The translations under genes and the position numbers were made by a program. A stretch of 64,000 nucleotides of DNA from Rhodospirillaceae bacterium MC! (lineage in GTDB: Bacteria > Pseudomonadota > Alphaproteobacteria > MC1). Shown here in pieces: positions 10,497 through 57,401 of the stretch (positions are counted from its first letter, which is position 1; each line of letters opens with the position of its first letter). The stretch spans positions 1 to 64,000 of the forward strand of contig NQOV01000018.1 of assembly GCA_002632265.1 (NCBI GenBank). The letters run 5' to 3'. Below the pieces are notes generated by a model that searched no databases, was not told the DNA's origin, and was given only the letters and a program-made list of their open reading frames with translations.

Positions 10497-11849
10497 TTAT
10501 GCTTTATTTTCCAAGTGAGCAGTAACTCGTTTTTTGTCGTGTCCATTGGAATAAACCATTAATAGAGCTAAGATTATTGTACAGACAAATATAAATGCTG
10601 AAAGCTCAAAATAAGCATTTTGCCAACCTTGGCTTTTAAACATTCCACCAACTACCGCATTCCCAGCACTACCGCCGAGATTCGCAATGAAGTTGAAACC
10701 AACTAAAAAGGCTGTTCCTGCGATTTTCTTATCAAATGATGTAGTTACGTATGAAAGTATTACAAGATTTGCAAAGGGATTAACAATCGCTAAAGCATTA
10801 CCAGCTACAGTCATGGCAATAACTCCAGGAATATAATTACCGCCTACGCTCGCATCTCTAAATAATCCTGCTATGCCAAAGATACCTAAAGCCACACCAT
10901 AACACAACGCAAGTACTATTATACTTCTCGTAGGATTTAATTTTTTAATGAATCCAGAGGCACGAGTTAATAATAAGAAAATAAGAATGTTACATGGCAA
11001 ACCAATAAAGGCATTAACTCTCATTCCTAAAGCTTGTTTATCTGCAGGCCAGAACGTTAAACCATAACGTCCCACTTGTGGATATTGGGCAAAAATTACC
11101 ACCATAATGGTAATAGCTAAAAACGCCAGCACGTAAAAACGTGGATTAACAATCAATTTTTTAAGATCAACTAATTTAACTTTTTGTTTTGATGTGGCTT
11201 TTGTGTTTAGATTGTCAAAGGGTCTCACTTTTAAGCTAAGCAATGATAGAACCATCCCTAAAGCCGCTAAACTAGCTAAATAGAATCCCCATGTTGGATT
11301 AATTGTATATAAAATACTAAGAGAGAAACCCATTACCAACCAAGCTAAGAAGTTCGCTGCTCCCACTTTATCCAATGGTGCTCCATGGGCTTCAACGTAT
11401 CTGGCACAATAACTCCAAACCGCTGCTCCACCTGCGATAATTACATATCCGAAGTATACACCACCCAATAAACCTGCGGTATAAAATAGGGTTGGGTTGT
11501 GAGTCATTAATAATGGTTTATATACGAACTGGAAAAATGGCCCTGCACCAAGACCCGCAATGGCAATTGTTATTATAAAATGGATACGCAGTTGGGTTTT
11601 ATCCAACAACCACCCAAATACAGGCTTATAGAAAATAGCTACTACGGTTTTTAATCCTAAGAGTTCCCCAATTTGTAACGAATCCAAACCGACATTTTTA
11701 TTTAACCATATGGCAAATACGCCCGAAGCTAAAACCGCAAATATAGAGGCATGGAAAAAAGCAACTAAACAAATTTTTATTGTAGCAACTCTTTTTGAAT
11801 CGATGATCCCTTGGTCTTGTAGCTCTTTTATGCTATCGTAATCACTCAT
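10497..11849 (-). CDS. LacY-like MFS oligosaccharide permease, array copy 1
   Basis: Twelve-helix MFS transporter, 450 residues, cytoplasmic membrane. By eye it follows LacY of the oligosaccharide:H+ symporter family collinearly: IGELLG.. then YKPVFGWLLDKTQLR for the loop 2-3 motif, GAGPFFQFVYKPLL for LacY's APFFIFIFGPLL, GGVYFGYVIIAGGAAVW for helix 4, and the final GWQNAYFEL for LacY's GFQGAYLVL. The LacY coupling residues Glu126, Arg144, His322 and Glu325 do not seem to be kept, so substrate and mechanism may differ. It begins MSDYDSI like the other four copies but is the most diverged. It has its own promoter, operator and a 20-codon leader ORF overlapping its start codon. Probable substrate: an oligosaccharide handled by the sulfatase and glycosidases downstream. 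Confidence 0.85.
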   Translation of the reverse strand: MSDYDSIKELQDQGIIDSKRVATIKICLVAFFHASIFAVLASGVFAIWLNKNVGLDSLQIGELLGLKTVVAIFYKPVFGWLLDKTQLRIHFIITIAIAGLGAGPFFQFVYKPLLMTHNPTLFYTAGLLGGVYFGYVIIAGGAAVWSYCARYVEAHGAPLDKVGAANFLAWLVMGFSLSILYTINPTWGFYLASLAALGMVLSLLSLKVRPFDNLNTKATSKQKVKLVDLKKLIVNPRFYVLAFLAITIMVVIFAQYPQVGRYGLTFWPADKQALGMRVNAFIGLPCNILIFLLLTRASGFIKKLNPTRSIIVLALCYGVALGIFGIAGLFRDASVGGNYIPGVIAMTVAGNALAIVNPFANLVILSYVTTSFDKKIAGTAFLVGFNFIANLGGSAGNAVVGGMFKSQGWQNAYFELSAFIFVCTIILALLMVYSNGHDKKRVTAHLENKA

Positions 11850-11908
11850 GATCTCGCTCCTTTATTTTTAAGGTTCTTGTTATATGTATTTTTTGTTAAA
11901 GTTTTCAT
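11846..11908 (-). CDS. leader ORF coupled to MFS copy 1 (20 codons)
   Basis: ATG at 11908 has AAAGGAAAAGTAAA upstream, a good ribosome-binding site. The 20-residue reading frame (MKTLTKNTYN..., ending LKNKGARS) stops at a TGA that overlaps the permease ATG in ATGA. The last codons (AAAAATAAAGGAG) double as the permease ribosome-binding site. Equivalent leaders precede copies 2, 4 and 5. It lies entirely between operator and permease, so it is the first frame translated. Function inferred as translational coupling; the peptide itself may have no role. Confidence 0.6.
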   Translation of the reverse strand: MKTLTKNTYNKNLKNKGARS

Positions 11909-11937
11909 TTTACTTTTCCTTTCAGTTTTTTACTAAA

Positions 11938-11994
11938 AATGTATACTTGAGTATACATTAATCTAAGTATACATTTATTTTCTGATAAAGTCAA
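11938..11994 (-). promoter_or_regulatory. promoter and perfect palindromic operator of MFS copy 1
   Basis: Minus strand TTGACT (11989-11994), 17-bp spacer, TATACT (11966-11971), then 7 bp to the perfect palindrome ATGTATACTTGAGTATACAT (plus strand, 11939-11958; extended by one more base pair each side). The operator would cover the transcription start. This is the best-conserved site of the set. Confidence 0.8.
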
Positions 11995-11996
11995 GA

Positions 11997-12044
11997 AAAA
12001 AATAGCCAAGAAAAAATATGTCATACTTTTTTTGGCTATTTTTT
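11997..12044 (-). terminator. terminator of MFS copy 2
   Basis: Stem AAAAAATAGCCAA (11997-12009) / TTGGCTATTTTTT (12032-12044). On the minus strand the T-run that ends the hairpin leads straight into the -35 hexamer of copy 1 (11989-11994), so one transcript ends where the next begins. Confidence 0.8.
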
Positions 12045-12138
12045 ATATAAGTTATTAATATTAAATAACTTTTTACTTAACTAATATTTTACATTACAAT
12101 AAAGAGAATCTAAATCATAGTTAAGCTTATTATTATTC

Positions 12139-13497
12139 TTATGTTTGCTCTTTTGATCTAAAATGAGTAGAAACTCGGTCTTTATCCTTATTATTTGCAA
12201 ACTTGATTAAGAAAGCTAGAATTATGGTAGCAATGAAAATGAATATGGAAATTTCAATATATGAATGTCCCCAACCTTGATTCTTAAACATTCCGCCGAC
12301 TATACCATTACCAGCACTACCGCCTAGATTACATATGAAGTGGAAACCAACTAGTAAAGCCGTACCTGCCATTCTTTTATTAAATGAGGTAGTTACATAT
12401 GATAAGACAACAATATTAGTAAAAGGATTTACCACATCTAACATCTGACGGGCGATAATACTTGCCACAAGGCTCGGCACATAGCTACCGCCTGCGGTAT
12501 AATCCTTGAAAAATGACGCCAAAGCAAAACACAATAAAGATAAACCATAACAAAATGAAACCAAGACTAAAGTTCTACTAGGATTAAACTTTTTAATAAA
12601 TACCGAACATTTAAATAATAGCAATAAGTGAATGACAGCTATTGGCAAACCCATATAAGCCATGAATTTTAAACCATAATTCTGCATATCGTTGGGCCAG
12701 AAAGATAAAGAATAGCGTCCGATTTGTCCATACTGTGCATAAACTATGGTCATGGTACTAATCGCAAAGAAAGCTAAAACGTAAAAGCGTGGATTTATGA
12801 TCAGCTTTTTCAAATCAGTAAACTTAATTCTGTCTTTTGATGTAACTCTAGTATTTAGATTATCAAAGGGTTTTACTTTCAAGCTAAGCAATGTTAAAAC
12901 CATTCCTAAGGCTGCCAAACTAGCCAGATAGAATCCCCATGTTGGATTGATTGTATACAACATTGTAAGAATAAAGCCCATAACTATCCAACCCATAGAA
13001 CTTGATACGCCGAGTTTATCCACTGTACCACCATGAGCCTCAAGATAACGCCCAGTATAACCCCAAACCGCTGCACCACCAGCGATGATCACATAACCAA
13101 AATATATCCCGCCTAATACACCAGCAGCATAAAAAAGAGAAGGATTATGAGTTAACAAAAGCGGTTTATATACGAATTGAAAAAACGGACCAGCACCAAG
13201 ACCAGCAAGAGCCAAAGTAATTACAAAATGGATACGCAGTTGAGTTTTATCCAACAGCCAGCCAAATAATGGCTTATAGAAAATCGCCACAAGAGTTTTC
13301 ATTCCTAGAAGTTCCCCAATTTGCAGGGAATTCAAGTGCATTTGTTTATCTAACCATATGGCGAATATTTGTGAGGCCAGAACTGCAAAAACACAACTAT
13401 GAAAGAACATAATTAAACATCCTTTTATAATCGCCACATTTCTCGAATCTATGATTCCTTGAGACTGTAGCTCTTCAATGCTATCATAATCACTCAT
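12139..13497 (-). CDS. LacY-like MFS oligosaccharide permease, array copy 2
   Basis: A 452-residue, twelve-helix member of the five-gene array, beginning MSDYDSIEELQSQGIID. It shares with copies 3-5 the near-invariant block SLQIGELLGMKTLV-x-x-FYKPLFGWLLDKTQLRI (residues ~55-90) and the C-terminal block NKRMAGTALLVGFHF. Divergence is concentrated in the helices after the central loop (residues ~265-340), which in MFS proteins line the substrate path, suggesting related but not identical substrates (inference). The permease RBS AAAGGAG lies inside the end of a 26-codon leader ORF. Promoter and operator at 13603-13657, terminator at 11997-12044, so it is an independent transcription unit. Confidence 0.85.
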   Translation of the reverse strand: MSDYDSIEELQSQGIIDSRNVAIIKGCLIMFFHSCVFAVLASQIFAIWLDKQMHLNSLQIGELLGMKTLVAIFYKPLFGWLLDKTQLRIHFVITLALAGLGAGPFFQFVYKPLLLTHNPSLFYAAGVLGGIYFGYVIIAGGAAVWGYTGRYLEAHGGTVDKLGVSSSMGWIVMGFILTMLYTINPTWGFYLASLAALGMVLTLLSLKVKPFDNLNTRVTSKDRIKFTDLKKLIINPRFYVLAFFAISTMTIVYAQYGQIGRYSLSFWPNDMQNYGLKFMAYMGLPIAVIHLLLLFKCSVFIKKFNPSRTLVLVSFCYGLSLLCFALASFFKDYTAGGSYVPSLVASIIARQMLDVVNPFTNIVVLSYVTTSFNKRMAGTALLVGFHFICNLGGSAGNGIVGGMFKNQGWGHSYIEISIFIFIATIILAFLIKFANNKDKDRVSTHFRSKEQT

Positions 13498-13574
13498 GAT
13501 ACTACTCCTTTATTTTTAAGTTTATTTAATTTACTTTCCTTTAAAGTATGTATATTTAACGATGAATTTTCCAT
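13494..13574 (-). CDS. leader ORF coupled to MFS copy 2 (26 codons)
   Basis: Start ATG at 13574 preceded by ATAAAGGAAAAAGA. The frame reads MENSSLNIHTLKES... and ends LKNKGVVS, with TGA overlapping the permease ATG. The piece SSLNI matches SFLNI/SFLHI in leaders 4 and 5, so it looks like an internally shortened version of the same 38-39 residue leader. Confidence 0.6.
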   Translation of the reverse strand: MENSSLNIHTLKESKLNKLKNKGVVS

Positions 13575-13602
13575 TCTTTTTCCTTTATGTTTTAATTTAA
13601 AA

Positions 13603-13657
13603 ATGTATATCTGTGTATACATAAGCTTATTATATATTTATTTTAATGTAATGTCAA
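13603..13657 (-). promoter_or_regulatory. consensus promoter and operator of MFS copy 2
   Basis: Minus strand TTGACA (13652-13657), 17-bp spacer, TATAAT (13629-13634): both hexamers are perfect sigma-70 consensus. Six bp after the -10 lies the operator ATGTATATCTGTGTATACAT (plus strand, 13603-13622), one mismatch from a perfect 8-bp inverted repeat with a 4-bp centre. Such a strong promoter needs a repressor to be controllable. Confidence 0.8.
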
Positions 13658-13704
13658 GAAAAAAATAGCCAAGAATAAAATGTCTTACATTTTTCTTGAC
13701 TATT
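13653..13704 (-). terminator. terminator of MFS copy 3 with alternative stems
   Basis: Two overlapping pairings are possible: GTCAAGAAAAA (13653-13663) with TTTTTCTTGAC (13690-13700), perfect 11 bp, or AATAGCCAAGAA (13664-13675) with TTCTTGACTATT (13693-13704), one mismatch. The first pairing uses part of the -35 of copy 2. Confidence 0.65.
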
Positions 13705-13768
13705 TCGTCTTAATTACTAAGATTAGTAACTTATTATTTCAATGAAAAAAGAGCTATACTCTTGTATT

Positions 13769-15130
13769 TCATGATGTTTTTGATTTAAAATGAGAGCTAA
13801 CTCGCTCTTTATCTTTAGAGTTGGCAAATCTAATTAAGAAAGCTAAAAGTATGGTCGCAACAAAGATATACGCAGCAATCTCAACGTATGAACGCCCCCA
13901 ACCTTGATTCTTAAACATTCCACCAATGACACCATTCCCAACACTACCGCCGAGATTAGAGACAAAGTGAAAACCAACCAGTAAGGCAGTACCTGCAATT
14001 CTTTTATTAAATGATGTAGTTACATATGATAACACAACAATATTAGTAAACGGATTAACAACTTCTAAAAGTCTCTTAGCTACTATACTCATCACAAGAC
14101 CAGGCATATAACTTCCGCCTGTGCTTGCACTGTAATCCTTTAACAGAGCGGCTAAACCAAAGACTAATAGAGCTATAGCATAACCAAATGAAACGATTAA
14201 TAAGGTTCTACTAGGATTAAATTTTTTAATAAATATCGAACAAGTTGCCAATAATATTAATTGAAGTACGCTGAATGGTATACCGATATAAGCATCAAAT
14301 TTCAAACCATATATTTGCTGATCCTCTGGCCAGAAAGATAAAGTATAGCGTCCTACTTGTCCGTATTGGGCGTAAACTACAACCATAGTTGTAACTGCAA
14401 AGAATACCAATACGTAAAAACGTGGATTAATAATTAATTGTTTTAAATCAGCAAGCTTAATTTTTTGTTTTGATGTTGATATTGTGTTTAAATTATCAAA
14501 TGGTTTCACTTTTAAGCTAAGCAATGTAAGAACCATACAAAAAGCGGTAAAACTAGCTAAATAGAATCCCCATGTTGGATTAATTGCATACAACATTGTA
14601 AGCACAAACCCCATGAATATCCAAGCTGCCGAACTTGAAGCACCGATTTTATCAACCGTACCACCATGAGCCGAAACGTAACGCCCTGTATAACTCCAAA
14701 CCGCTGCACTACCTGCAATGATCACATAACCGAAGTATACACCACCTAGGAAACCCGCAAGATAGAAAAGAGTAGGATTATAAGTTAATAACAATGGTTT
14801 ATAGATAAATTGAAAAAATGGACCAGCTCCAATACCTGCAAGGCCTAGAGTTACTATAAAGCGGATACGCAGTTGAGTTTTATCCAACAACCAACCAAAT
14901 AATGGCTTATAGAAAATCGCCACAAGAGTTTTCATTCCCAAAAGTTCCCCAATTTGTAGAGAATCTAGATGTATTTGCTTATCTAACCATATGGCAAATA
15001 TTTGTGAGGCAAGCACCGCAAAGATACAACTATGAAAAAACATAATTAAACACCCTTTTATCGTTGCTACTCTTTTTGAATCTAATATCCCTTTTTCTTG
15101 TAGGGATTCTATACTATCATAATCACTCAT
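13769..15130 (-). CDS. LacY-like MFS oligosaccharide permease, array copy 3
   Basis: Array member of 453 residues, twelve helices, beginning MSDYDSIESLQEKGILD. It is closest to copies 4 and 5 at both termini (NQGWGRSYVE, RVSSHFKSK). It contains a small insertion after helix 9 (KDYSASTGGSYMPG against KDYTAGGSYMPS). Its RBS AAAGGAG is conserved, but unlike the other copies its leader ORF is broken by an early stop, so translation should depend on the permease RBS alone. Own promoter and operator at 15282-15336; terminator region at 13653-13704. Substrate unknown; oligosaccharide uptake inferred. Confidence 0.85.
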   Translation of the reverse strand: MSDYDSIESLQEKGILDSKRVATIKGCLIMFFHSCIFAVLASQIFAIWLDKQIHLDSLQIGELLGMKTLVAIFYKPLFGWLLDKTQLRIRFIVTLGLAGIGAGPFFQFIYKPLLLTYNPTLFYLAGFLGGVYFGYVIIAGSAAVWSYTGRYVSAHGGTVDKIGASSSAAWIFMGFVLTMLYAINPTWGFYLASFTAFCMVLTLLSLKVKPFDNLNTISTSKQKIKLADLKQLIINPRFYVLVFFAVTTMVVVYAQYGQVGRYTLSFWPEDQQIYGLKFDAYIGIPFSVLQLILLATCSIFIKKFNPSRTLLIVSFGYAIALLVFGLAALLKDYSASTGGSYMPGLVMSIVAKRLLEVVNPFTNIVVLSYVTTSFNKRIAGTALLVGFHFVSNLGGSVGNGVIGGMFKNQGWGRSYVEIAAYIFVATILLAFLIRFANSKDKERVSSHFKSKTS

Positions 15131-15269
15131 GATTTTACTCCTTTATTTATAAGTGTTTTTATATTTTGGTTTTTTGTGGTAGTATTTCCACAAAATTTAA
15201 TTCAGTTGAATTGAATTTAATTTAAATAATATATATTTAATATACTATTTGTATTTATTTTCTCTTCAT
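15127..15269 (-). pseudogene. decayed leader ORF of MFS copy 3
   Basis: At the position of the leader start there is ATG (15269) without a clear ribosome-binding site, followed after three codons by TAA. The frame that ends with TGA overlapping the permease ATG is still open for ~24 codons (ending KTLINKGVKS) but has no ATG of its own. This looks like the leader of the other copies after loss of frame. Confidence 0.5.
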
Positions 15270-15281
15270 TTCTGATTTAAA

Positions 15282-15336
15282 ATATACAGTCATGTATACA
15301 TAAGATCATTGTATATTTATTTTAGTGTAATGTCAA
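15282..15336 (-). promoter_or_regulatory. promoter and operator of MFS copy 3
   Basis: Minus strand TTGACA (15331-15336), 17-bp spacer with AAAATAAATA, TACAAT (15308-15313), then 6 bp to ATATACAGTCATGTATACAT (plus strand, 15282-15301). The promoter-proximal half-site GTATACAT is intact; the distal half is degenerate. Confidence 0.75.
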
Positions 15337-15342
15337 GAAAAA

Positions 15343-15384
15343 AAATAGCCAAGAAAAAATATTCTACATTTTTCTTGGCTATTT
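15343..15384 (-). terminator. terminator of MFS copy 4
   Basis: Perfect 16-bp stem, 15343-15358 (AAATAGCCAAGAAAAA) with 15369-15384, followed on the minus strand by a T-run that leads into the -35 of copy 3. Confidence 0.85.
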
Positions 15385-15449
15385 AGCCTAAATTACTAAG
15401 ATTAGTAAGTTATTATCTCAATGGAAAAAAAGACCTATACTCTTGTATT

Positions 15450-16805
15450 TCATGATGTTTTTGATTTAAAATGAGAAGTAACTCGCTCTTTATCTCTAGA
15501 GTTAGCAAATCTAATTAAGAATCCTAAAAGTATGGTAGCAATAAAGATATAGATACCAAGTTCAACGTATGAACGTCCCCAACCTTGATTCTTAAACATT
15601 CCACCAACTACGCCATTCCCAAGGCTAGCACCCAGATTAGAAACGAAATGTAAACCCACTAGTAACGCTGTACCACCCATTCTTTTATTAAATGACGCTA
15701 ACACATAAGATACCGCAACAACATTAGTAAAAGGATGGACAAATAATAACATTTGCTTAGCAATTACGCTTGCTATAAGGCTCGGCATATAGCTACCGCC
15801 TGCGGTGTAATCCTTTAACAGTGCAGCAAGACCAAAGCATAATAAGGATAAACCATAACCACTCCCAATCACTAATAATGTTCTACTAGGATTAAATCTT
15901 TTAATGAATCCTGAACAGGTTGCTAATAGTATGATTTGAACAATACTAAATGGAGCTCCAAAATATACATCGAATTTTAATCCGTATGTTTGCATATTAT
16001 CGGGCCAAAAAGATAAAGAATATCTTCCAATCTGTCCATACTGTGCATAGACTACAACCATGGTACTAAGGGAAAAGAAAGCTAAAACGTAAAAACGTGG
16101 ATTAGTAAATAATATCTTTAAATCAGTAAGTTGAATTTTTTGTTTAGAAGTAGCTTTGGTATTTAAGGTGTCAAAGGGTTTCACTTTTAAACTAAGCAAT
16201 GTAACCATAAGACCAAAAGCAGATAAACTAGCTAAATAGAATCCCCATATAGGATTGATTGTATACAATGCAGTAAGAATAAATCCCATAATTAACCAAG
16301 CTATAGAATTTGAAGCTCCAACTTTATCGACTGTTCCTGCATGAGCCTCGATATAACGTCCAGTATATCCCCAAATAACCCCACTACCAGCAATAATCAC
16401 ATATCCGAAGTAGATACCACCTAATAAGCCAGCGGCATAAAACAAGGTAGGATTATGTGTCATTAATAATGGTTTATATACGAATTGAAAGAATGGACCA
16501 GCTCCAAGCCCTGCAATTGCAATAGTTATTATAAATCTAATACGCAGTTGAGTTTTATCCAACAACCAGCCAAATAATGGCTTATAGAAAACAGATACCA
16601 GAGTTTTCATTCCCAAAAGCTCCCCAATTTGTAGGGAATTTAAGTGCATTTGTTTATCTAACCATATGGCGAATATTTGCGAGGCCAGAACTGCAAAGAT
16701 ACAGCTATGAAAAAACATAATTAAGCACCCTTTTAAGATCGCCACCCTTCTCGAATCTAGTAACCCTTGTGCTTGTAAGGGTTCTATGTTATCATAATCA
16801 CTCAT
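15450..16805 (-). CDS. LacY-like MFS oligosaccharide permease, array copy 4
   Basis: Array member of 451 residues, twelve helices, beginning MSDYDNIEPLQAQGLLD. It forms a close pair with copy 5: both have MLLFVHPF in helix 10 where copies 2 and 3 have LDVVNPF/LEVVNPF, and both have LGASLGNG in helix 11. Their leaders are also nearly identical at DNA level, so copies 4 and 5 come from the most recent duplication. The permease ATG overlaps the leader stop in TAATG. Independent unit with promoter and operator at 16951-17005 and terminator at 15343-15384. Confidence 0.85.
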   Translation of the reverse strand: MSDYDNIEPLQAQGLLDSRRVAILKGCLIMFFHSCIFAVLASQIFAIWLDKQMHLNSLQIGELLGMKTLVSVFYKPLFGWLLDKTQLRIRFIITIAIAGLGAGPFFQFVYKPLLMTHNPTLFYAAGLLGGIYFGYVIIAGSGVIWGYTGRYIEAHAGTVDKVGASNSIAWLIMGFILTALYTINPIWGFYLASLSAFGLMVTLLSLKVKPFDTLNTKATSKQKIQLTDLKILFTNPRFYVLAFFSLSTMVVVYAQYGQIGRYSLSFWPDNMQTYGLKFDVYFGAPFSIVQIILLATCSGFIKRFNPSRTLLVIGSGYGLSLLCFGLAALLKDYTAGGSYMPSLIASVIAKQMLLFVHPFTNVVAVSYVLASFNKRMGGTALLVGLHFVSNLGASLGNGVVGGMFKNQGWGRSYVELGIYIFIATILLGFLIRFANSRDKERVTSHFKSKTS

Positions 16806-16921
16806 TATTTTATTCCTTTATTTTTAAGTTTATTGTTATTTTTAACTGTTATTATATTACATCCAAAGCTATTTAAAAGTGTTGGCCTGCTATATTGTAT
16901 ATTTAAGAACGATTTTTTCAT
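16805..16921 (-). CDS. leader ORF coupled to MFS copy 4 (38 codons)
   Basis: ATG at 16921 with AAAGGATAATAAA upstream. Reading frame MKKSFLNIQYSRPTLLN..., ending KLKNKGIK, stop TAA overlapping the permease ATG by one base (TAATG). Residues SFL-x-I-x-YSRPTLLN-x-FG are shared with the leader of copy 5. Basic, 38 residues, no signal peptide or known domain. Confidence 0.65.
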   Translation of the reverse strand: MKKSFLNIQYSRPTLLNSFGCNIITVKNNNKLKNKGIK

Positions 16922-16950
16922 TTTATTATCCTTTATATTTATTGTTTAAA

Positions 16951-17005
16951 ATGTATATTTGTGTATACATAGATTTAGTATATATTTATTTTAAGACAAT
17001 GTCAA
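16951..17005 (-). promoter_or_regulatory. promoter and operator of MFS copy 4
   Basis: Minus strand TTGACA (17000-17005), 17-bp spacer with AAAATAAATA, TATACT (16977-16982), 6 bp, then operator ATGTATATTTGTGTATACAT (plus strand, 16951-16970). Confidence 0.8.
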
Positions 17006-17051
17006 GAAAAAAAATAGCCAAGAAAAAATCTAAAATATTTTCTTGACTATT
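17001..17051 (-). terminator. terminator of MFS copy 5
   Basis: GTCAAGAAAA (17001-17010) pairs with TTTTCTTGAC (17038-17047); alternatively AATAGCCAAGAAAA pairs with TTTTCTTGACTATT with one mismatch. As in the other gaps it abuts or overlaps the next -35. Confidence 0.65.
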
Positions 17052-17097
17052 TAATATGAATTACTAATATTAGTAACTTATTGTATTAATTTAAAAG

Positions 17098-18468
17098 CTA
17101 TGCTTCCGTTTCTCCTGATACTTTCGATTTCAAGTGGGAAAGAACTCTTACTTTATCTTTATAATTGGCAAACTTAATTAATAAGCCTAAAATTATTGTG
17201 GCAACAAAGATGTAGATAGCAAGCTCGACGTATGAACGTCCCCAACCTTGTGTTTTAAGCATTTCGCCAATTACACCATTCCCAAGACTAGCACCTAAAT
17301 TAGATACAAAGTGGAAACCTACTAATAAGGCAGTACCTGCCATCACTTTATCGAATGATGCGAATACATATGATAACACAACAACGTTAAAGAAAGGATG
17401 TACAAATAATAACATTTGTTTAGCAATGATACTTGCTACAAGGCTTGGCATATAGCTACCGCCTGGGTTATAATCCTTTAACAGTGCCGCACAACCAAAG
17501 GCTAAGAAAGATAAACCATAACCTACTCCGACCAGCATTAAAGTTCTACTAGGGTTAAACTTTTTAATAATTTTTGAACAAACTGCCAATATGAATATCT
17601 GAATAATACGCAATGGTAAAGTAAGATAAGCATCAAACTTTAAACCATATGTTTGCATATTTTTGGGCCAAAAAGATAAAGAGTATCTTCCGATCTGTCC
17701 ATACTGGGCGAACACTACAACCATGGTAGTAATCGCAAAGAAAACTAATACGTAAAAACGTGGATTAGAAACTAATTTCTTTAAATCAGCCAGTTGAATC
17801 TTCTGTTTAGATGTGGATTTGGTATTTAAGCTGTCAAAAGCTTTCACTTTTAAAGTAAGTAATGTAATAAACATCCCTAAAGCTGACAAACTAGCTAAAT
17901 AAAATCCCCATATTGGATTAATAGTATACAACATGGTCAGAATAAAGCTCATAAGCAACCAAGCGGTAGAATTTGAAGCAGCAAGTTTATCAACTGTACC
18001 ACCGTGAGCTTCAATATAACGTCCTGTATATGTCCAAACTACACCACCTGCAGCGATGATCACGTAACCGAAGTATACACCACCCAATAAGCCTGCAAGA
18101 AAAAATCCAGTTGTAGTATGACTCTCTAAGAGAGGTTTATATACGAATTGAAAGAATGGGCCAGCTCCAAGACCACCAATGGCAATCGTTATTATAAAAC
18201 GGATACGCAGTTGGGTTTTATCCAACAACCAACCAAATAATGGCTTATAGAAAACCGCCACAAGGGTTTTCATCCCCAAGAGTTCCCCAATTTGTAGGGA
18301 ATTTAAGTGCATTTGTTTATCTAACCATATGGCGAATATTTGCGAGGCCAGTACGGCAAAGATAGAACAATGAAAAAACATTATTAAACAACCTTTTATG
18401 ACTGCCACTTTTTTCGAATCTAGTATCCCTTGTTCTTGTAGGGATTCTATACTATCATAATCACTCAT
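17098..18468 (-). CDS. LacY-like MFS oligosaccharide permease, array copy 5
   Basis: Array member of 456 residues, twelve helices, beginning MSDYDSIESLQEQGILD; the C-terminus is a few residues longer than in the other copies (KVSGETEA). It is the first of the five in genomic order along the minus strand and faces the divergent DNA methyltransferase gene. The conserved loop 2-3 block (YKPLFGWLLDKTQLR) and helix 11 block (GTALLVGFHFVSNLGAS) are intact. The leader stop overlaps its ATG (ATGA) and the RBS AAAGGAG lies in the leader end. Promoter with consensus hexamers and operator at 18614-18668. Confidence 0.85.
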   Translation of the reverse strand: MSDYDSIESLQEQGILDSKKVAVIKGCLIMFFHCSIFAVLASQIFAIWLDKQMHLNSLQIGELLGMKTLVAVFYKPLFGWLLDKTQLRIRFIITIAIGGLGAGPFFQFVYKPLLESHTTTGFFLAGLLGGVYFGYVIIAAGGVVWTYTGRYIEAHGGTVDKLAASNSTAWLLMSFILTMLYTINPIWGFYLASLSALGMFITLLTLKVKAFDSLNTKSTSKQKIQLADLKKLVSNPRFYVLVFFAITTMVVVFAQYGQIGRYSLSFWPKNMQTYGLKFDAYLTLPLRIIQIFILAVCSKIIKKFNPSRTLMLVGVGYGLSFLAFGCAALLKDYNPGGSYMPSLVASIIAKQMLLFVHPFFNVVVLSYVFASFDKVMAGTALLVGFHFVSNLGASLGNGVIGEMLKTQGWGRSYVELAIYIFVATIILGLLIKFANYKDKVRVLSHLKSKVSGETEA

Positions 18469-52738: not shown

Positions 52739-53548
52739 TTATTTGTGAAAAAAATCTACTAATTGTTTATTTAGAATTAAATTTGAGACAATAATACCGT
52801 TAGAACAATCGATCTCTTGATTTTTATCATAATCAGTTACTACGCCAGCGGTTTCTTTGGCGAAGAATTCGGCAACTTTTGCGGTAATATAGTCGGGTTT
52901 ATCTTGCCAAAATCCGTCCAACCTACCGCAACAAACGAAAGCAATATCCAAGCTTGCACAACCTGACGAGCGAACGCCTGTTGATTTTTTGCTTAAGGGG
53001 ATGACTTCCGAGACAATTCTTTTTTCATCTTCAATATAAGAGCCGAATAATGAGCGTTCCACCTCTCGAGTTTTGCCCACTCGCATACGGCTATGGCGTT
53101 TGTCGAATCCGTCATTTAAAATGAAAGCTCCTTTATTTTCTTGAGCATAAAACATATCGCCATGTAAGGGATCAAAGATCACAGCGTCAATTACTTTACG
53201 ATTTTCTTCAATGGCGATCATGAATGTATAAAAGGGATAGCCATTGGAGAAATTTTCAATGCCGTCGATCATTTTAATGAGGAATCTATGGGAAGAATCT
53301 TCACCGTTAATGCTTGTACCGTCATCAAAAATAAAGCCGTATCTGGGGCGTGATTGAGTGAAATATGTCAATAAATTTTCTTTATTGTAATTATATCCAT
53401 TGGTAATGAAATTCTTTAGATTGGGAGATCCTTGAAGTTGCCCGATATCTTTAAAGTCTTTTAGCAGATTTTTCCCTACTTCTTCCGCCATTTGTATTAA
53501 TATATTGACATTGGCACTCTTTACATGCCCACCTTCGTATTCACTCAT
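52739..53548 (-). CDS. inositol-monophosphatase-like (SuhB family) protein with lost metal ligands
   Basis: 269 residues, collinear by eye with SuhB/IMPase: KMIDGIENFSNGYPFYTFMIAI for the W-x-x-DPxDGTxNF block, DAVIFDPLHGDMFYAQENKGAFILN for the beta block, and SSGCASLDIAFVCCGRLDGFW for the G-S-A-A-LDLAYVAAGRLDGF block. Several metal-binding acids are changed: the first Asp of DPxDG is Lys92, the Asp of P-W-D-x-A-A is replaced (KPDYITA), and the EE of motif 1 reads DDG. Asp95 remains. It is therefore probably catalytically impaired or inactive. E. coli SuhB has an RNA-polymerase-related role independent of phosphatase activity, so a non-enzymatic role is possible. Single gene, RBS AAAGGAT. Confidence 0.7.
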   Translation of the reverse strand: MSEYEGGHVKSANVNILIQMAEEVGKNLLKDFKDIGQLQGSPNLKNFITNGYNYNKENLLTYFTQSRPRYGFIFDDGTSINGEDSSHRFLIKMIDGIENFSNGYPFYTFMIAIEENRKVIDAVIFDPLHGDMFYAQENKGAFILNDGFDKRHSRMRVGKTREVERSLFGSYIEDEKRIVSEVIPLSKKSTGVRSSGCASLDIAFVCCGRLDGFWQDKPDYITAKVAEFFAKETAGVVTDYDKNQEIDCSNGIIVSNLILNKQLVDFFHK

Positions 53549-54433: not shown

Positions 54434-54662
54434 TAGATTTTAACACCATTCCCCACCCTAAACTAGACCGACATGTACTCAATGCCTACACTAGACTTAG
54501 TTTAAGGTGCAGATTAGCCCATTTATCCACCACCGCAAGCCCCTAGGATTGGGAGAAATGGGATAAGATGTGCCTTTAATTAGGGCGACATGTACGACAT
54601 GTTTACCTTAGCCCTAATTAAAGGTGCAGATTAGCCCATTTATCACAATCCTAGATTTTAAC
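54434..54662. mobile_element. palindromic repeat segment flanked by 11-bp direct repeats
   Basis: Bounded by TAGATTTTAAC at 54434-54444 and 54652-54662. Inside, a 24-bp unit occurs twice (54504-54527 and 54621-54644, identical, beginning AAGGTGCAGATTAGCCC), and 54543-54586 is the imperfect inverted complement of 54611-54654 (44-bp arms, 24-bp centre). The innermost 14 bp CCTTTAATTAGGGC / GCCCTAATTAAAGG are perfect. Its base composition is richer in GC than its surroundings. It lies in the gap between the TorD gene and the aconitase-like gene and overlaps the last codons of the latter. Confidence 0.6.
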
Positions 54663-57246
54663 TGTTTTTGACTCGGTGATAGGCGATTAGCTCATCTTCT
54701 CTAAAGATGGCGACAACGGCGTCAACAGTAACATTTTTACTAGATTTTTGATTGTTGGTAATTATACATTTATGGTTTAAAATTAACTTTTCATTGTTAT
54801 CTTTTAATTTTGCACTGTTGCCGACTAGGATAATATCTAGATTTGAGTATCCGTATAGGGAATTGTTTTCAATCATGGTTTTATTTGTTATTACTACTGG
54901 TAATATGCCATTGAAGATTAAATCTCGCCTGAAGATATCATCGAAGGAAACGGCTATTACGGCTTTTATATCAAATAGAGTTAGCGAATATGCTACATTG
55001 TTGGCATTATTGTATAAGCCGAAGTTATTACCGCCAAATATTACAGTGCCTTTTAATCCTTGTGGGGAATTTTTTTGCGTTTTATAGATGTTTAGATAGT
55101 TTTCATCTTCATGGATAAACATCATATCGCCGTAATGGTTTTTCTTAAATAAATAATTTTGTAAACCTTTACTATTAAAGAGATTCCCTCTTAGAACCAT
55201 ATCGTTATTATTGTATGAACGTTGGAAATTAATATCTATGTTTTTCTCTATGGTATTTTGTAGAATATTGGTACTGGTTGATAGTTGGAAGTTTCCCATT
55301 AGCTGATCTGTTGTTATATTATCGCCAAATATCCCTAGAATATGTAAATTGTGATAGATTAATTTTGTGGGTACATTGCTGTTAGTGTGAGATTTAAAAT
55401 ATAGACTATGCTCCTGATGTTCATAGACAATTGAATTATCTGCTTGGGAACTGGTGTCTATTTTCTCCCACATGGTATCGGATTCTGTTTTGCTTAGGAA
55501 TCTGTTATGAATGCTATCACTTACATTATAATTTATCTTTTTTAGATTGGTTTTAAATTTGTCTCGCTCTATTGCTACTTCTTCATCTGTAGGCATGACA
55601 TTATGAGAATAAATTTGTCTAAATTTCTTCTTCACTAAAGGGGCTGATAGTAGATTATTGTTGGCTGTACCTTGTATGGCATACAGTAAGGTAAAGACAG
55701 GCGGAACAAAAATATTGAACTTTATGCTATCATTATAATGACGTGTTATATTATAACCGTAGGAAAATATCCCTGCTGTTTCTAGATCTTGACGTGTGGC
55801 AACTTCTTTTTCTATTTTTCTATCTAGGATGTATCCCCTGTTGGTTATGATATCTGCTCCGATGTGCGAAACAGAAAAGCCTATTTTTGCTAAAGCTTGT
55901 AAATATCCGTTGGCTTGCAAGATGTTATAGAGATCTAAAGATCTCACATTAAATACGGTTTTTACCCACGGTTTAGCCTTAACTCCCAATCTAGCTAATC
56001 TTTTAGCCAGTAAGCCGATATTGATTATCTGATCAAAATCTTCAAAAGCTATGGGCAGATCCAGAGCCGTAATTAAAATTGCTCCATCAGGTAAGGCTTT
56101 GCCCTTATAAGGAGTGGGAACTATGGGCGATTTAAATAGGGAAGGCGTGTTCATAATACTTCCTGCTGAAACCCTAGAATCTTTTGATAAGATAATGTTA
56201 AAAGGGACATTCTTTAAGGATATACTAATCTCATTTTCATATTTGGGCGTCTTCATTCTACTGATTAATAAATTTTGAGTCGACGCATAACGTTCTAATA
56301 ATTTAGGAGCGTTGGGCATATCAAAAAATTCGGCAACTAGTTTATCCATAGGGAAAAATACCTTGTTGCTAGAATAAGCTCCCACTAAAGACGCAATCTC
56401 CAAGCGATCGGATATGCTAAACTCATAGGGCGTAGATTGGAACTCTAAAATGGAATTCTGATAGCCCCTTTCTTTGGCTTTTTCTATGATACTGATAGCG
56501 ATATCGTAAATATTTTCATTCCCACTTAAGGCATTATAAATGGAAACACCGATAACATTAGGATGTTTAATAACTGTTTTGCCTGTGGTTAAAATATTCG
56601 GAATCTCTGTGATCGGCACTTGGATACTTAAAATCCCAAACGCTCCCAAAAGATTCGCCACACTATGATTACTAGCCACCACCTTAAAACGTACTGCACT
56701 TTGTTTCTTATTATCATGTAAGGGCGTGATCTTGAGAACTTTAACTAAATGATCTATGGCCAGTTGATCAACAGTACCTTTTCTTGGGGGGATAATGGAA
56801 ATATCTCGATTGTGAAGCTTTTGAAACCATTTTAAAAATGTGTATCGTTCATTGTTTATACGGAAATCTTTTTCCATACTATCCTTTAATTCGATGTTAG
56901 AATTTTCAACAACTACGGTTGTTTTGGTTTTTAATTTAAGCTTATCTTCATCCTTAGCCTGCCTTTGATTGAGCTTGTAAAAGGCAGTAGTAGCCGAAAC
57001 GTCATCCAAGATAACATCATCAATATTAATGGTAAAATTAACATCTTCTTTTTTTTCAAAGATAGCATCCACATAGGATTCATTTATGGTATCTTGATTG
57101 ATCACACTTTCCAACAAAAGATGAGAATATGCGGAAAGATTAGACAATGAAAATTTCTTACTAGTAGCAACCGAATAACTACTAGGAAAAATATATCCTT
57201 TGTTACTTAAAGAAAAAATATCTAAAATTTGGTTTTTATTAATCAT
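54658..57246 (-). CDS. aconitase A-like protein lacking the Fe-S ligands (pseudoenzyme)
   Basis: An intact 862-residue frame that follows AcnA/IRP1-type aconitase in order and spacing. Matches by eye: NNERYTFLKWFQKLHNRDISIIPP (~131-154), GVSIYN...DRLEIASLVGAYSSNKVFFPMD (~233-301), GLLAKRLARLGVKAKPWVKT (~411-430), PPVFTLLYAIQGTA (~515-528), LGIFGDNITTDQL (~637-649) and DIKAVIAVSFDDIFRRDLIFNGILP (~759-783). The active site is gone: the S-C-T-N-T-S block is LITALDLP (391-398), the G-C-x-x-C block is IGADIITN (462-469), the PPGTGIxHQ block is PPRKGTVDQ, and the only Cys is at ~827. It cannot hold the [4Fe-4S] cluster. Promoter at 57373-57401. The absence of stops or frameshifts argues for a retained, non-catalytic role; what that is remains unknown. 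Confidence 0.72.
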   Translation of the reverse strand: MINKNQILDIFSLSNKGYIFPSSYSVATSKKFSLSNLSAYSHLLLESVINQDTINESYVDAIFEKKEDVNFTINIDDVILDDVSATTAFYKLNQRQAKDEDKLKLKTKTTVVVENSNIELKDSMEKDFRINNERYTFLKWFQKLHNRDISIIPPRKGTVDQLAIDHLVKVLKITPLHDNKKQSAVRFKVVASNHSVANLLGAFGILSIQVPITEIPNILTTGKTVIKHPNVIGVSIYNALSGNENIYDIAISIIEKAKERGYQNSILEFQSTPYEFSISDRLEIASLVGAYSSNKVFFPMDKLVAEFFDMPNAPKLLERYASTQNLLISRMKTPKYENEISISLKNVPFNIILSKDSRVSAGSIMNTPSLFKSPIVPTPYKGKALPDGAILITALDLPIAFEDFDQIINIGLLAKRLARLGVKAKPWVKTVFNVRSLDLYNILQANGYLQALAKIGFSVSHIGADIITNRGYILDRKIEKEVATRQDLETAGIFSYGYNITRHYNDSIKFNIFVPPVFTLLYAIQGTANNNLLSAPLVKKKFRQIYSHNVMPTDEEVAIERDKFKTNLKKINYNVSDSIHNRFLSKTESDTMWEKIDTSSQADNSIVYEHQEHSLYFKSHTNSNVPTKLIYHNLHILGIFGDNITTDQLMGNFQLSTSTNILQNTIEKNIDINFQRSYNNNDMVLRGNLFNSKGLQNYLFKKNHYGDMMFIHEDENYLNIYKTQKNSPQGLKGTVIFGGNNFGLYNNANNVAYSLTLFDIKAVIAVSFDDIFRRDLIFNGILPVVITNKTMIENNSLYGYSNLDIILVGNSAKLKDNNEKLILNHKCIITNNQKSSKNVTVDAVVAIFREDELIAYHRVKNS

Positions 57247-57372: not shown

Positions 57373-57401
57373 ATTATAGCATAAATATAATTGCAATACA
57401 A
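57373..57401 (-). promoter_or_regulatory. probable promoter of the aconitase-like gene
   Basis: Minus strand TTGTAT (57396-57401), 17-bp spacer, TATAAT (57373-57378). CATTTGTAT and ATACAAATG form an inverted pair around it. The leader is about 120 nt and the start has only a weak RBS (AAAAAGTA). Confidence 0.55.

Follow-up and report, generated by a model that had tools for sequence, protein, structure and literature searches.

Bacterial apo-aconitases that bind mRNA have been described for AcnB (PMC4150767) and for the AcnA of M. tuberculosis (PMC7527780), and SuhB, which acts as a Nus factor in a nonenzymatic role (PMC4807359, PMC6614801), provides a precedent from a metabolic-enzyme family, although that family differs from aconitase. 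The moonlighting of E. coli AcnB and M. tuberculosis AcnA has in common with the present case the idea that a cluster-free aconitase can have a noncatalytic role; however, theirs are reversible states of active enzymes, whereas the protein described here would, by its sequence, be permanently cluster free. IRP1 and IRP2 share the AcnA-type fold with it, and the apo form of an IRP is likewise noncatalytic, but the RNA-contact arginines are lost here, while IRP1 retains its cysteines. Aconitase A itself (AcnA; TIGR01341, PRK12881, and PRK09277) is matched in collinearity, domain order, and predicted fold, but the present protein has no cluster cysteines, has lost the catalytic residues along with the substrate arginines, and is approximately 22% identical. 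No class of cluster-less aconitases was found in the literature searched.

The source genome (2.05 Mb, 95.5% complete, one assembly) is the sole member of its order among the genomes compared, and the stretch of DNA analyzed (the window; 64,000 nucleotides) corresponds to its contig 13. Judged by gene content, the genome most probably belongs to the Alphaproteobacteria. The gene in question is the following:

54658..57246, minus strand, AcnA-derived open reading frame of 862 amino acids with replacements at every Fe-S ligand and at most positions of the active site

The frame runs through 862 codons from an ATG at 57246 to a stop at 54658, with zero internal stops, and its codon usage is ordinary. 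The initial annotation had these coordinates right but gave no strand, which is minus. Since an open run of 862 codons has a probability of approximately 7e-30 at the composition of this gene, the frame is not a chance one. The protein contains a single cysteine in 862 residues and has full-length aconitase domains in the AcnA order, with both Pfam matches above the cutoff (Aconitase, 6e-26; Aconitase_C, 4.8e-10). The NCBIfam AcnA models cover residues 9 to 854 (E values of 1e-68 to 3e-69), as the initial annotation had anticipated for a profile comparison, and its description of an uninterrupted 862-codon gene collinear with aconitase A holds on both the reading frame and this full-length match. 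However, the model scores (211 to 234 bits) did not reach the curated equivalog and subfamily cutoffs of 686 to 945 bits. The nearest solved structures by sequence were IRP1 and IRP2.

The positions of the three cluster cysteines were located in an alignment as follows:

56053..56055, minus strand, codon 398 (Pro), replacing the first cluster Cys (SCTNTS; IRP1 Cys437)
55855..55857, minus strand, codon 464 (Ala), replacing the second cluster Cys (GCTTC)
55846..55848, minus strand, codon 467 (Ile), replacing the third cluster Cys (GCTTC)

When the protein was aligned by MAFFT with 29 AcnA sequences of the same class, 99 of the 311 near-invariant columns were kept, and within these columns none of the conserved cysteines (0/5), histidines (0/6), or methionines (0/7) remained. 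Losses were heavier at active-site positions, with 2/20 kept versus 97/291 of the other near-invariant positions (Fisher P = 0.02). The His of GICHQ has become D160, both the D and the H of TDSHT are lost, the two arginines of NRNFEGR are replaced by Y498 and H503, the SRRG block is deleted, and the SSR of GSSRD reads N746, N747, and A748. All of the class relatives inspected (56/56) retained the cluster and catalytic motifs. The alignment thus bears out an earlier reading of the sequence, in which the Fe-S cysteines, the catalytic residues, and the swivel-domain block had all been replaced. The product is predicted to be an AcnA-derived, catalytically dead protein; the gene is derived from AcnA but should not be classed as an aconitase, because the ligands and the catalytic residues are absent.

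Structure prediction, which had also been proposed at that stage, gave a model collinear with AcnA and IRP1. AlphaFold2 supplied with an alignment of 37 AcnA sequences predicted an aconitase fold (pLDDT, 74.5; pTM, 0.79), in a model that leans on that alignment; without an alignment, the single sequence gave an uninformative pLDDT of 32, as is usual for lone sequences. Foldseek TM scores of the model were 0.82 to AcnA and 0.81 to IRP1 versus 0.36 to AcnB and 0.28 to 0.30 to AcnX, and membership in AcnB or aconitase X was therefore rejected. Model confidence was lowest around residues 650 to 710, where the SRRG block and some of the active-site positions formerly lay. An intact frame, the loss of the catalytic residues, and a predicted enzyme fold together fit a pseudoenzyme by sequence.

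Orthologue searches in 58 and 385 genomes of the class returned ordinary AcnA only, at 22 to 27% identity. Scanning the genome collection and the viral collection with peptide patterns yielded zero orthologues, and an alignment-based genome scan found canonical AcnA only and no cluster-less orthologue. Two small genomes of the class (G098 and G374; loci L062 and L063) carry two tandem AcnA paralogues that are approximately 45 to 49% identical and have intact ligands, and these paralogues were consequently rejected as cluster-less relatives. Because NuoD of the source genome is mostly 52 to 59% identical to the same relatives, the divergence is specific to the aconitase-like gene and not lineage-wide. 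In the tree, the branch of the aconitase-like protein sits at the program ceiling (10), and the tree thus shows neither vertical descent nor transfer.

The surroundings of the gene contain these features:

57373..57401, minus strand, candidate promoter TTGTAT-17 nt-TATAAT with an extended -10 (TGCTATAAT), recognized by eye
54456..54655, no strand assigned, two tandem hairpin repeats of approximately 110 bp, directly 3' of the stop
52739..53548, minus strand, SuhB-like open reading frame (inositol monophosphatase family) with its metal ligands lost

The promoter described as recognizable in the initial annotation is plausible by eye, but sigma-70-like sites near the gene are no commoner than in shuffled DNA (40 versus 33 ± 6). 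The hairpin of approximately 110 bp is a dispersed intergenic repeat, with 103 genome-wide matches (e.g., L158 to L187) versus 0 for a control pattern; its outer arms are conserved (TGGGCTAATCTGCACCTT), its inner stems are modular, and its arrangement is frequently tandem. The copies 3' of the aconitase-like gene could form its 3' end or a terminator; no intrinsic terminator was called there, and the next gene begins 231 bp away. The SuhB-like protein, encoded two genes downstream, carries K and T at the positions of E. coli D84 and D212, respectively, and this ligand loss may have a separate explanation, by analogy with the nonenzymatic Nus role of SuhB. Elsewhere in the window (10497-18468, minus strand), five consecutive and closely similar genes for MFS-type transporters of approximately 450 codons form a tandem amplification.

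The initial annotation had raised the question of a normal acnA or acnB elsewhere in the genome, and neither was found; the only other family member in the source genome is LeuC. Citrate synthase is likewise missing from this genome, as are icd and the monomeric form of isocitrate dehydrogenase, and the sole PF00180 protein adjoins leuC and leuD and was read as LeuB. A joined E. coli query (GltA, SdhA, SucC, SucD, Mdh, and FumC) gave no GltA, SdhA, SucC, SucD, or Mdh match in the source genome and produced only weak matches within the fumarase/argininosuccinate-lyase superfamily. The whole TCA cycle thus appears to be absent. A normal cycle on a missing contig is unlikely, since several separate enzymes are gone together from a genome that is 95.5% complete. 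GltB, which scores well above its cutoff, and a GltD-like small subunit are encoded at L188:2212-8294 (minus strand), though no enzyme leading from citrate to 2-oxoglutarate was found.

Two further TCA remnants adjoin each other on contig 11:

contig 11, 326984-329470 (L068:14985-17471), plus strand, SucA-like open frame of 828 codons
contig 11, 329474-331987 (L068:17475-19988), plus strand, SucB-like open frame of 837 codons

Both score far below their family cutoffs (354 versus 764 bits for the SucA-like protein and 86 versus 379 bits for the SucB-like protein). In the SucA-like protein, HRGR, NPSHLE, and the EGQGPEHSS loop are missing, but the NNQ motif persists, as does the Asp of HGDAA. 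The SucB-like protein no longer has the C-terminal DHR...DG motif or a subunit-binding domain; it has gained a long QPKDEQPQ repeat linker and has kept the lipoyl lysine. Because of the apparent TCA loss and the erosion of these two proteins, the finding is one at the level of a pathway, and relaxed selection becomes a stronger rival explanation than the initial annotation had allowed.

Two genome-wide causes were considered and rejected. A lost capacity for Fe-S clusters is contradicted by LeuC, in which all cluster ligands are kept, and by the Fe-S subunits of Nuo, which score normally. A general mutator or genome-wide decay is contradicted by an intact MutS and by approximately two dozen other proteins in the window that are unaffected. 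Nothing comparable was seen either in 20 large proteins encoded in 120 kb outside the window, and the pyruvate dehydrogenase genes, complex I, ArgH, GltB, TrpB, MutS, and ValS all look normal.

The simplest form of decay, a pseudogene drifting neutrally, was the alternative named in the initial annotation. In simulations, real AcnA sequences evolved neutrally until their retention had fallen to the 32% seen here; over 30 runs per setting, the mean number of stops was 36 to 40 and the minimum was 23, whereas the gene has none. The approximately 29 insertions and deletions relative to the family are all in frame, in agreement with the earlier statement that no frameshift was present. Neutral decay was rejected on these two grounds, which also indicate that selection held the frame through most of the divergence.

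We tentatively prefer the explanation that the protein has been retained for a noncatalytic role. An ordinary housekeeping aconitase A gene would have been the starting point; the lineage would then have lost the TCA cycle, which would have made aconitase catalysis useless, and the cluster ligands, the catalytic base, and the substrate-binding arginines would have drifted away. Selection would have kept the reading frame open through a very large divergence, as it would have for the SucA-like and SucB-like genes, and a folded, aconitase-shaped protein, noncatalytic and perhaps partner binding, would still be made. We infer that the protein is made, folds, and has a function, and protein binding or scaffolding is a more probable role than RNA binding of the IRP type.

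Ranking nearly level with retention for a noncatalytic role is an eroding relic, which would have had no sequence-specific role since the TCA cycle was lost and in which only stops and frameshifts are purged, owing to harm from truncated or frameshifted products or from mRNA left untranslated, the amino acids drift nearly freely, and no present function exists. Residue-level constraint on the aconitase-like protein is weak, and much of the evidence is what such a relic would leave: the kept residues are evenly spread, without clustering (P = 0.46), the AcnA profile score (226 bits) is no different from the 217 to 226 bits reached by neutral simulations that reject stops, the pathway is gone, and the SucA-like and SucB-like remnants are in a similar state. 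However, purging of stops alone should not deplete cysteine, keep a codon-position signature, or make substitutions conservative. Cysteine makes up 0.1% of the protein versus 2.2% expected under neutrality (z, -4.9 to -3.6), purines at codon position 1 are above the neutral level (z, +2.6 to +3.4), and the substitutions are slightly more conservative than neutral (BLOSUM z, +2.2 to +2.7), all z values being approximate, as they derive from simple mutation models with sequences of relatives as ancestors. The cysteine depletion, the codon-position bias, and the slightly conservative changes are modest pointers to selection at the protein level. Nor is it obvious that nonsense mutations would be harmful through polarity, given the hairpins 3' of the stop and the distance of 231 bp to the next gene. 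A broader version of retention, in which the aconitase and the E1 and E2 of 2-oxoglutarate dehydrogenase were kept as a set of pseudoenzymes having structural or regulatory roles in common, seems unlikely.

A regulator that binds RNA in the manner of an apo-aconitase or IRP, permanently cluster free, is quite improbable. Binding of mRNA by the apo forms of AcnB (PMC4150767) and M. tuberculosis AcnA (PMC7527780) would make such a function conceivable, and loss of the cluster would lock the apo state. The strong hairpin 3' of the gene might be taken for a target, but as a dispersed repeat with approximately 100 copies it was rejected as a gene-specific one, and it is for the same reason not evidence for self-binding. 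Additionally, the IRP1 arginines that contact RNA (R536, R541, R699, and R780) correspond here to Y498, H503, a deletion, and A748, so that all of them are replaced or deleted, which counts against an IRP-type form of the RNA-binding role suggested in the initial annotation. Least probable by far is an active, cluster-free citrate/isocitrate isomerase or other lyase: the frame is intact and the fold family is that of aconitase, but with 2 of 20 active-site residues kept, the ligands, the catalytic base, and the substrate arginines missing, no enzyme found for making citrate or using isocitrate, and Fe-S chemistry available in the genome (LeuC ligands, Nuo), catalysis is virtually precluded.

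The suspected noncatalytic roles of aconitase and the 2-oxoglutarate dehydrogenase complex are inseparable from metabolism in ordinary cells, and a genome that lacks the pathway but in which the reading frames of the stripped proteins persist offers a natural case of separation of function. If the aconitase-, SucA-, and SucB-like proteins are made and constrained, noncatalytic roles would become directly testable, and if the three do form a set of pseudoenzymes, these enzymes would have functions on which selection can act apart from their chemistry. If they are not made or constrained, the locus would instead be a striking example of how far unbroken enzyme genes can drift, which would bear on how pseudogenes form in bacteria and how they are counted.
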